DNA of 64,000 bases. It comes from Clostridia bacterium (GTDB lineage Bacteria; Bacillota; Clostridia; Christensenellales; Aristaeellaceae). Position numbers and translations under genes: made by a program. A model generated the notes under the pieces. It worked only from the letters and a program-made list of their open reading frames with translations. It was not told the DNA's origin and ran no database searches. Shown one piece after another: positions 17,906 to 19,005 of the stretch (position 1 is its first letter; the number at the start of each line of letters is the position of its first letter). The stretch spans positions 39,766 through 103,765 of the forward strand of contig JAFYVB010000018.1 in assembly GCA_017549335.1 (NCBI GenBank), read 5' to 3'.

Positions 17906-17946
17906 CGGGGGAGCGAGTAATCGCTCCCCCGGTTTTTGTTTTTTTA
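17906..17946 (+). terminator. Strong rho-independent terminator
   Basis: CGGGGGAGCGA, GTAA loop, TCGCTCCCCCG, then GTTTTTGTTTTTTT. It ends the flavin reductase transcript. Confidence 0.9.
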
Positions 17947-17947
17947 G

Positions 17948-18038
17948 AATAAAATATCGCCCGCAGCAGCAAGGTCTGGCATCCATGATGCTCAACCCCT
18001 TAATGCCCACAAAGATGCAGGTGCTGCGCCAAGCGACA
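17948..18038 (-). ncRNA. Candidate structured small RNA A
   Basis: No protein frame of note, but a minus-strand consensus promoter feeds a short segment closed by complementary ends: GTCGC...GCAGCA near the 5' end pairs with TGCTGC...GCGAT near the 3' end, followed by ATTTTATTC. An inner hairpin GCATC-ATG-GATGC is also present. About 90 nt. I do not recognise the RNA family; it is not an obvious SRP RNA (no GGAA apical loop) or 6S RNA (too short). Confidence 0.5.
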
Positions 18039-18043
18039 GTATT

Positions 18044-18072
18044 ATTATAGTGTAGGTGCAGGAACGTGTCAA
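18044..18072 (-). promoter_or_regulatory. Consensus promoter for small RNA A
   Basis: Minus strand TTGACA, 17-base spacer, TATAAT: exact consensus at both hexamers. Confidence 0.75.
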
Positions 18073-18123
18073 GTGCAGGCGGCAAGAAATTGAAAAAGAC
18101 AAAAAGTTTGTTTGATCAAGCGC

Positions 18124-18204
18124 AAAAAATAGAGCTTACAACCATGGGACTTAGCGGCAATACAGCCGGTTCGCCCCCTGCCATAAACGGCGTTGCAAAC
18201 TCTG
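18124..18204 (-). ncRNA. Candidate structured small RNA B
   Basis: About 80 nt on the minus strand. Its ends form an uninterrupted 12-base pairing (AGAGTTTGCAAC with GTTGTAAGCTCT, counting G-U pairs), and the 3' arm runs straight into ATTTTTT, so the outer stem can serve as its own terminator. GC-rich inner segments (GGC-TGTATT-GCC) can form further hairpins. It lies behind a near-consensus promoter. Family not recognised. Confidence 0.5.
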
Positions 18205-18209
18205 GACGT

Positions 18210-18238
18210 ATTGTAGCACGGATTTTTGAACTTGTCAA
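18210..18238 (-). promoter_or_regulatory. Near-consensus promoter for small RNA B
   Basis: Minus strand TTGACA, 17-base spacer, TACAAT. Confidence 0.75.
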
Positions 18239-18245
18239 AGAATCT

Positions 18246-18320
18246 CCCGAAAAACCATAGCTTTTCGGGGGACGTTTGGTACACCCGGTGCGATTCGAAC
18301 GCATGGCTTTCAGGGTCGGA
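18246..18320 (-). pseudogene. Truncated tRNA-Arg copy (3' half plus terminator)
   Basis: Positions 18277-18320 match the 3' half of the intact tRNA-Arg (18888-18931) at 42 of 44 bases, from the anticodon through the CCA end. The related hairpin-terminator that follows the real tRNA is also present in diverged form (18246-18271). The 5' half is missing, so no functional tRNA is encoded. Both copies share the same mismatch in the T stem. Such half copies are what site-specific integration at a tRNA leaves. Confidence 0.8.
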
Positions 18321-18553
18321 AGTATATATCCGAGTCAAAGATATGAACAAATAAAAACATCACACAGGCTATAACCCGTAAGTATGGCGAAGTGCCATAC
18401 ACGGAATTCCTGCGCGATGTTTCTGTGAGAAGTATATCCGAGAACGAGGAGAATGTCAATGGAAAAAATCATGACAGAAGCTATATGCAGAAGAAGCACT
18501 GCATGAAAAAACGGGTGAAATATTCACCCGTGCATACAATGTTTTGTACATAG

Positions 18554-18625
18554 AAAAAGTAGCTGATATGGCGGAGGGTGTTCACTCCGAAAACGGAGGC
18601 TTAACCCTAAAGGCCACAGCTACCG
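18554..18625 (-). ncRNA. Candidate structured small RNA C
   Basis: Minus-strand segment of about 70 nt whose ends pair (GTAGCTG with CAGCTAC), with the 3' arm followed by TTTTTC. Inside is a hairpin CTCCG-TTTT-CGGAG. A second hairpin ACGGGTGAA/TTCACCCGT plus TTTTTT at 18504-18531 gives a back-up terminator, so a ~120-nt form is also possible. Driven by an exact-consensus promoter. It lies between the tRNA-Arg gene and its truncated copy. Family not recognised; a type I antitoxin RNA is one possibility only. Confidence 0.5.
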
Positions 18626-18630
18626 ATATC

Positions 18631-18659
18631 AGTATAGCAGAACTGTATGACCTTGTCAA
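18631..18659 (-). promoter_or_regulatory. Consensus promoter for small RNA C
   Basis: Minus strand TTGACA, 17-base spacer, TATACT. Confidence 0.75.
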
Positions 18660-18848
18660 GCGATAAGCAGGGAACAAAACTTGCAGGGATGGGAAACATC
18701 CAAATAAAAGGAGGGGCGAAAGCCCCTCTTTTCGATTGTGGGATTTTACACTTCTTTACACTTGTGTGTAAATTTGCATTGATTATATTGATTATTAGAG
18801 CAATAAAGGGGGAGAAGGGAAACGGAAAAAGCACAAAGAAAAGCATCA

Positions 18849-18882
18849 AAAACCCCCGAAAACCGTGGTTTTTCGGGGGTTT
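18849..18882 (-). terminator. Terminator of tRNA-Arg
   Basis: AACCCCCGAAAA and a complementary TTTTTCGGGGGTTT arm, ending in a T-rich stretch on the minus strand just beyond the CCA end. Confidence 0.75.
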
Positions 18883-18887
18883 CTGTG

Positions 18888-18964
18888 TGGTACACCCGGT
18901 GCGATTCGAACGCATGGCCTTCAGAGTCGGAGTCTGACGCTCTATCCAACTGAGCTACGGGTGC
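18888..18964 (-). tRNA. tRNA-Arg (anticodon CCG)
   Basis: A 77-base cloverleaf with encoded CCA. Acceptor GCACCCG pairs with CGGGTGT (one G-U), the D stem is GCTC/GAGC, and the anticodon stem TCAGA/TCTGA encloses CTCCGAC, giving anticodon CCG that reads CGG. The T loop is TTCGAAT. The T stem has one A-C mismatch at its base, also present in the truncated copy nearby, so it is probably old. A sigma-A promoter lies directly upstream. Confidence 0.93.
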
Positions 18965-18975
18965 ATAGCTTATAC

Positions 18976-19005
18976 ATTATAGCGCGGAAAGGCAGTTTCT
19001 GTCAA
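18976..19005 (-). promoter_or_regulatory. Promoter of tRNA-Arg
   Basis: Minus strand TTGACA, 18-base spacer, TATAAT, 12 bases before the tRNA 5' end. Confidence 0.8.

Follow-up and report, generated by a model that had tools for sequence, protein, structure and literature searches.

Cis-antisense RNAs are well known from mobile elements, among them IS10 RNA-OUT, P22 sar, ColE1 RNAI, P1/P7 C4 and P4 CI. Small RNAs also serve in toxin-antitoxin systems. In type III (ToxI-like) systems, tandem RNA repeats under one promoter lie directly before the gene of an endoribonuclease toxin, and in type I systems the RNA lies antisense to an mRNA that encodes a small toxic peptide. The window analyzed here, a stretch of 64,000 nucleotides from a Clostridia bacterium, contains four small-RNA units (W1–W4) on the minus strand beside a tRNA-Arg gene. 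As judged from sequence, they appear to be tandem genes of rod-shaped RNAs that descend from antisense genes in the LPD3 linker of phage polyvalent genes; they are not independent host genes.

A tandem array of promoter-RNA units

The four units share one layout, in which a TTGACA-17-TANANT promoter is followed after 5–6 nt by a predicted RNA of 67–84 nt with paired ends and then by T-rich DNA. Unit W1 (18550..18659) has the promoter TTGACA-17-TATACT at 18659-18631, an RNA at about 18624-18558 and a T-run at 18557-18550. W3 (18124..18238) has TTGACA-17-TACAAT at 18238-18210, an RNA at about 18203-18131 and a T-run at 18130-18124, and W4 (17948..18072) has TTGACA-17-TATAAT at 18072-18044, with 12 of 12 matches, an RNA at about 18038-17955 and a T-run at 17954-17948. 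A sequence-only reading of the window had named these three promoters on the minus strand, two of them at the positions found here; the third starts at 18072, not at 18067. Its three units are all present, but its count is too low, as a fourth promoter, TTGACA-17-TATACT at 18459-18431, leads into unit W2 (18346..18459), with an RNA at about 18424-18353, a 16-bp closing stem and a T-run. The folded segments that it described, with complementary ends running into T-rich DNA, correspond to the RNAs of W1, W3 and W4. Since no promoter or T-rich end is shared between units, the idea that they might be a processed set is unsupported; that they are small RNA genes of one class is supported as a prediction, in the case of W2 by layout only.

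Each promoter in the array has TTGACA and a -10 box with 5 or 6 of 6 matches, and the stems measure 8–16 bp. Minimum free energies give z-scores of -4.0 (W1), -9.0 (W2), -4.2 (W3) and -3.2 (W4) against dinucleotide shuffles, with the W4 fold equalled by 2 of 200 such shuffles. Across the genome, the TTGACA-17-TANANT pattern occurs at 106 sites, compared with a single site for the reversed control pattern, and the consensus is therefore in use in this organism. When the stem is required to start 5–6 nt past the -10 box, 8 of the 95 distinct promoters with enough DNA downstream have a contiguous closing stem of at least 8 bp and a T-rich end, namely W1–W4, K1–K3 (locus L021) and R1 (L022). One further promoter of the 95 has a 7-bp closing stem, and mononucleotide shuffles of the downstream DNA yield 1.1 of 95 at the 7-bp threshold. 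At gathering scores, searches with Rfam covariance models return only tRNA from the window, and the matches that overlap W1–W4 at E up to 10 all remain below threshold. More broadly, no Rfam 15 family reaches its gathering score on any unit in the window or at 19 further loci, in agreement with the earlier view that these are not SRP RNA, 6S RNA or tmRNA; identity with these or other known Rfam RNAs is rejected.

tRNA surroundings and sibling loci

The tRNA-Arg (CCG) gene upstream of the array (18888..18964, minus strand) has its own promoter at 18976-19005 on the same strand, with 12 of 12 matches and 18-bp spacing. Between gene and array (18685..18885, minus strand) lie the tRNA terminator, a TTTACAC..GTGTAAA inverted repeat and a GAGGGGCTTTCGCCCCTC hairpin, an arrangement common to two other tRNA loci of this genome. 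The inverted repeat with a GAGGGGC-type hairpin recurs at 18711-18770 in the window, L021:510-560 and L022:5150-5210, and is possibly the end of an integrating element. Between W2 and W3, the 3' half of tRNA-Arg and its terminator hairpin are partly duplicated (18246..18320, minus strand), which gives a 47-nt direct repeat at 94 percent identity and a 26-nt terminator repeat at 81 percent. This copy would be an att-like duplication, as expected after repeated integration at a tRNA end.

Units K1–K3 lie behind a run of Leu-Gly-Gly-Lys tRNA genes and R1 behind tRNA Arg-ACG, and their loci share about 200 bp with the window from the tRNA terminator onward. Interspersed with the units at L021 are a Gp49/ParE-like gene, an HTH gene and a weakly Mrr-like frame. 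The DNA between these units (L021:1487-3947), in which the Gp49/ParE-like gene has its HTH partner and which also encodes a 145-aa protein of no assigned function, is perhaps a small defence-type island. K3 resembles K1 from promoter to T-run only (77 percent over 114 nt). Among relatives' loci that match the tRNA 3' half (L059-L087), 0 of 29 contain a unit, and the idea of a general feature behind tRNA-Arg is rejected on that count.

The earlier statement that coding potential is absent is correct only in part: plus-strand frames of 63, 68 and 69 codons cross W1, W2 and W3, and the frame at W4 is broken by a stop codon. Promoter, fold and T-run thus persist where the protein frame has shrunk to 63–69 codons or is broken. 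Opposite W1 lies a C-terminal fragment of an LPD3-type polyvalent protein (18490..18666, plus strand; 58 codons) that ends in DISIAELYDLVKR and a stop. It has no Pfam match of its own and aligns with a long phage ORF in L088, from another genus. The entire W1 unit, from promoter to T-run, is 70 percent identical to an antisense stretch within this polyvalent ORF (L088/L243), which encodes ART-PolyVal behind the linker; it is the one whole-unit match in a search of 308 family genomes, with 2 candidates scored per genome. Of the window frames, that of W1 is clearly LPD3-like. W2–W4 have the same LPD3 register, seen by inspection, with proteins that are hardly recognizable. The 64-aa open frame opposite W3 (18066..18260, plus strand), which ends in GRIVARIFELVKESPEKP and has no Pfam match, is a probable decayed LPD3-tail remnant in that register, again by inspection. 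Frames opposite K1 and K2 also match LPD3 (PF18798): that of K1 gives E 1.9e-4, short of the curated cut-off, and that of K2 is weaker (E 0.054). No close phage target of W1–W4 was found in the 308 family genomes or in the phage and plasmid collections.

An antisense unit within phage LPD3 genes

In the units whose opposite strand was translated, V-K or V-N codons read in reverse complement give the -35 box. A tail motif begins opposite the -10 box, LPD3 ends opposite the T-run, and the RNA occupies the variable linker between the two. By layout, W1–W4 show the same combination of promoter, close stem of at least 8 bp, T-rich end and LPD3-tail register that characterizes this LPD3-linker antisense RNA family. 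One phage example is L187, which was found by LPD3 protein alone and has, opposite an open frame of 1773 aa, an antisense TTGACA-17-TACAGT followed after 6 nt by a 13-bp closing stem and T5. A scan with a VADLF-type promoter pattern gave 33 viral stretches, and 12 of these (including some duplicates) lie in LPD3-like frames with a unit; L192 is probably one more, and most of the others look like chance matches.

Protein searches with alignments returned the pattern-found genes together with new ones, and after removal of identical duplicates 19 distinct LPD3-tail genes were tested. Exact antisense TTGACA is present in 19 of 19, a count that includes eight genes first caught by a promoter pattern requiring TTGACA (L222, L223, L226, L229, L230, L231, L232, L236) and one, L243, first caught by DNA likeness to W1. 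In the promoter-blind remainder (L225, L228, L235, L237, L238, L239, L241, L242, L244, L245), of which L237 and L238 are nearly identical, it is present in 10 of 10. Two further blind genes stand outside the 19, L246 (frame under 100 aa) with TTGACA and L233 (differing motif) with TTGACG, so that 11 of 12 blind genes are exact overall. Comparison with synonymous shuffles places the promoter score at P <=0.047 in all 19 genes. Stem length reaches P <=0.05 in 13 of 19 (6 of 10 in the blind set) and lies within the synonymous null in the other 6, and fold energy reaches P <=0.05 in 12 of 19 (5 of 10). A survey of 24 units, of mixed origin and with L248 and L249 added once their units had been seen, shows stems of at least 8 bp in 23 (6 bp in L235), exact TTGACA in 23, and stems that start 1–10 nt past the -10 box.

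At E up to 1, Pfam gives an LPD3 match for each of the 18 proteins in alignment A5, with a best value of 1.9e-15. Of the 15 PF18798-matching loci, 8 carry a unit immediately after the match (weak in L121, with TTGACG in L123 and TTGACT in L124), L114 has one about 1.3 kb on, and 6 have none; the unit-less match in L126 is probably not LPD3. LPD3 is followed by ART-PolyVal in L193, L213 and L218. A link to the ART domain instead of LPD3 is rejected, as 0 of 19 loci matched only in the ART part have a unit, and no VADLF-like tail was seen at these loci. The protein context varies: units directly follow LPD3-like domains in several different settings, and the same promoter lies on quite different protein motifs. 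The -10 sequence TATACT is not special to the freed copies and is found in other phage units too.

Some genes carry more than one unit. Repeated LPD3-like segments, partly in one ORF, each have their own antisense unit in L122 (three units) and L289 of G122 (four). On the plus strand at L193:5882 lies a second unit (TTGACA-17-TACAGT, 14-bp stem) that is not behind the Pfam-matched LPD3, and the RNA may therefore also follow other domains. Relatives are almost lacking in INPHARED phages and PLSDB plasmids: several searches gave no match, and the remainder comprises short weak matches (E >=0.2), 13 records on the ART end of the query and one fecal phage, L249. The protein pattern IPxxPQNVN gave 9 stretches, with LPD3 only in L213, and scans with single protein queries, like the first scan of genome contigs, gave no new relative.

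Conservation at the RNA level

In the RNA, one and the same helix is flanked by the words UGAAC and GCUA. The UGAAC complement falls in codon phase 0 in L222, L225 and L228 and in phase 1 in L223, L226, L237, L238, L239, L241 and L244; for GCUA, the complement is in phase 2 in six of these ten genes and in phase 1 in the other four. Since each word occurs in two codon phases, it is the RNA and not the protein that is kept. The core internal loop GCUA/UGAAC (UUAAG/UGAAC in W1) is retained while the stems change, and is absent from W2 and W4 by inspection. The loops may resemble the UAA/GAN motif.

Paired changes are also found in the stems. RNAalifold shows double changes in 7 of 20 pairs for W1, L229 and L243, in 5 of 23 pairs for K1–K3 and R1, and in 4 of 6 core pairs for ten type-A units, where only the core was counted because MAFFT misaligned the closing stem. 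In an alignment of 30 matches to a covariance model built from K1–K3 and R1 only (model R1), 96.4 percent of 420 cells pair, compared with 62.7 percent in shuffles and 35–43 percent in slides; double changes occur in 21 of 23 pairs and the closing stem is 98.3 percent paired, all figures from an alignment that was fitted to the structure and includes at least 4 unconfirmed units (L245 1935-2033, L260, L263, L264). The antisense strand folds better than the other strand in 20 of 27 units, not all independent, by a mean of 5.3 kcal/mol (P 0.0007).

Over 19 unit-bearing loci (213 kb), model R1 gives 24 matches at E up to 1, which comprise its 4 training copies, 18 other units and 2 unrecognized places. 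It recovers W4 (E 6e-5), W1 (2e-4) and W3 (0.07), and in the same DNA misses W2, the L214 unit and the second units in L193, L213 and L241. Across the 308 family genomes it matches 7 at E up to 0.1, the genome studied here included. Model R2 was made from the 30 matches; its E-values for W1, W3 and W4 prove nothing because these are among its training copies. W2 is recovered by neither model, and its membership therefore rests on layout and register. R2 matches 50 of the 308 genomes at E up to 0.01, where about 3 would be expected by chance if its rough E-values hold. Inspection of 28 model-search loci by strict scan found a complete unit in 13, of which L293 is probably an ordinary gene promoter, and none in 15. 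Arrays found in this way include one of three consecutive units in G167 (L286) and one of four units in G122 (L289). A few hundred bases behind an R2-found unit, at L278:1867-2076, is a cobalamin riboswitch (RF00174).

Copies without a long gene

Beyond the window, units lie opposite frames of under 70 codons at L259, L280, L285 and L297. Locus L259 belongs to another genus (G164) and has three units with no long LPD3 frame, flanked by what we take, from their translations, to be a GNAT-type gene and a proline-tRNA-ligase-like gene. Its K-type copy, which has a weak -35 box (TGAACA), differs from K1 at 20 of 63 positions and keeps 23 of 23 pairs; the neutral mean is 14.4, and 0 of 5000 runs are as high. 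K3 likewise keeps 23 of 23 pairs (P 0.008) and K2 21 of 23 (P 0.0004), and the R1 copy is too similar to K1 to inform. The divergence of these freed copies may in large part predate their release from a phage gene. Pair retention therefore reveals constraint on the RNA and not when it acted, and persistence of the copies is no proof of present selection. Another genus of the family has a unit at L297:1501-1600 on the plus strand, where the opposite frame spans 57 codons and two tRNA-Ser genes are some 230 bp away. At L260 (G274), a TTGACA-17-TATACT promoter near 1600 on the minus strand lacks a long closing stem, and the unit is possibly in decay.

A model for function and its alternatives

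That a phage LPD3-linker antisense RNA family exists is well supported and, in our assessment, highly probable. The best overall account combines this family with repression of the polyvalent gene and capture of the window copies, and its chances of being right as a whole appear about even. The phage units lie opposite, and are complementary to, open target genes, and in the window only fragments of such targets remain. The window copies look like fragments of these genes that were captured next to tRNA-Arg, and the duplicated tRNA 3' end suggests two or more steps. The sequence-only reading had held that segments shown to be remnants of a protein gene or mobile element would not be RNA genes. 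The DNA is indeed of that origin, but the RNAs are not thereby refuted, because intact phage genes carry the same antisense promoter and folded RNA.

In phages, the RNA would act in cis to restrain the polyvalent mRNA, a mechanism that we put forward tentatively and rate somewhat short of an even chance. Host RNA polymerase would use the predicted promoter, whose consensus boxes are kept beyond codon expectation, and transcription would end at the stem and T-rich DNA. The product would be a stable transcript with full complementarity to the polyvalent mRNA; by repressing this mRNA or directing its decay, it would prevent ill-timed synthesis of the multi-domain protein. Chromosomal copies that lack a gene would be relics or might damp related incoming phages in trans. 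Cis-antisense control explains why the sequence can vary freely, why there is a promoter and why the RNA is embedded in a gene, but not why loop words are conserved.

One alternative is that the window units are inert relics of degraded phage genes, still intact-looking, and that the RNA matters only in phages. This is possible though doubtful. It fits the frames that are still open across W1–W3, the capture suggested by the duplicated tRNA end, the absence of units from the tRNA-matched loci of relatives and the possibly decayed examples in G274 and G164. It sits less well with the TTGACA, near-perfect -10 boxes and stems common to all of W1–W4, and with a layout that is kept in W4 despite the stop codon and in W2 despite the lack of a recognizable protein.

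The loop letters, conserved though unneeded in a pure cis-antisense RNA, suggest a bound partner, perhaps LPD3 itself. An RNA that acts in trans, bound by LPD3, a neighboring domain or a host factor as an antitoxin-like molecule, tag or decoy, would be placed antisense for the sole reason that the linker tolerates any sequence, and would travel with its partner. Constancy of shape and core loop amid changing stems, the position right behind LPD3-like domains in several protein contexts, the ART-only loci that lack both unit and VADLF-like tail, and the copies without a long frame all agree with this. W2 and W4 nonetheless do not show the core loop, and LPD3, a putative binding partner, gives only insignificant matches in the PDB (E >=0.25); we consider action in trans unlikely.

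A bolder extension, that bacteria collect polyvalent antisense RNA genes at tRNA attachment sites as an RNA-based immune memory, seems quite improbable to us. If true, each captured unit would silence the polyvalent gene in related phages as they enter, with specificity set by stem and loop divergence, like loop changes in plasmid incompatibility. Finally, the view that the promoter is a mere reverse complement of a protein motif and the stems a sense mRNA or DNA hairpin, for which the overlap of the -35 and -10 boxes with a conserved VADLF-group amino-acid motif and the 7 of 27 units whose other strand folds as well or better might speak, is hardly credible and is rejected on the synonymous shuffles (19 of 19 genes), the RNA words kept across codon phases and the better folding of the antisense strand, as well as the recurrence of the promoter on quite different motifs.

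Comparison with known systems

Neither kind of toxin-antitoxin RNA describes the units. A type III RNA is at odds with a separate promoter and T-rich end for each unit, and no toxin gene was recognized in cis to the array on reading the listed open reading frames. A type I RNA is at odds with opposite frames that exceed 1000 aa in 10 of 11 cases, the shorter LPD3-type frames being about 300–800 aa. Rfam 15 families are likewise small structured RNA genes, but none corresponds to the units at gathering score. The genes that carry the RNA are those of LPD3 polyvalent proteins. Iyer et al. 2017 (PMC5512222) names LPD3, and its main text lacks the terms "antisense" and "small RNA". PMC11980606, PMC11879866 and PMC10910872 contain both kinds of term, and in their accessible portions antisense RNA in polyvalent genes is not the subject; no report of such RNA was found in the open-access literature searched.

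The units point to a folded RNA gene hidden opposite protein linkers in viral contigs and metagenome-assembled genomes of Clostridia, where one DNA stretch encodes both linker and RNA. Its shape is kept and its sequence is not, and sequence-alignment searches would therefore miss it. LPD3, a domain without assigned function, gains a candidate RNA partner, and the chromosomal copies raise the question of whether they act against phages. Like IS10 RNA-OUT and its class, the LPD3-linker RNA is short and strongly folded, has its own (here predicted) promoter, and lies opposite a mobile-element gene to whose mRNA it is complementary, in a repressor role that is here putative. Unlike that class, it is embedded in a long protein gene, where it occupies the linker after a single domain, sometimes with several units per gene; it keeps its rod shape across unrelated sequences, and it has tandem copies in host chromosomes with little or no gene.
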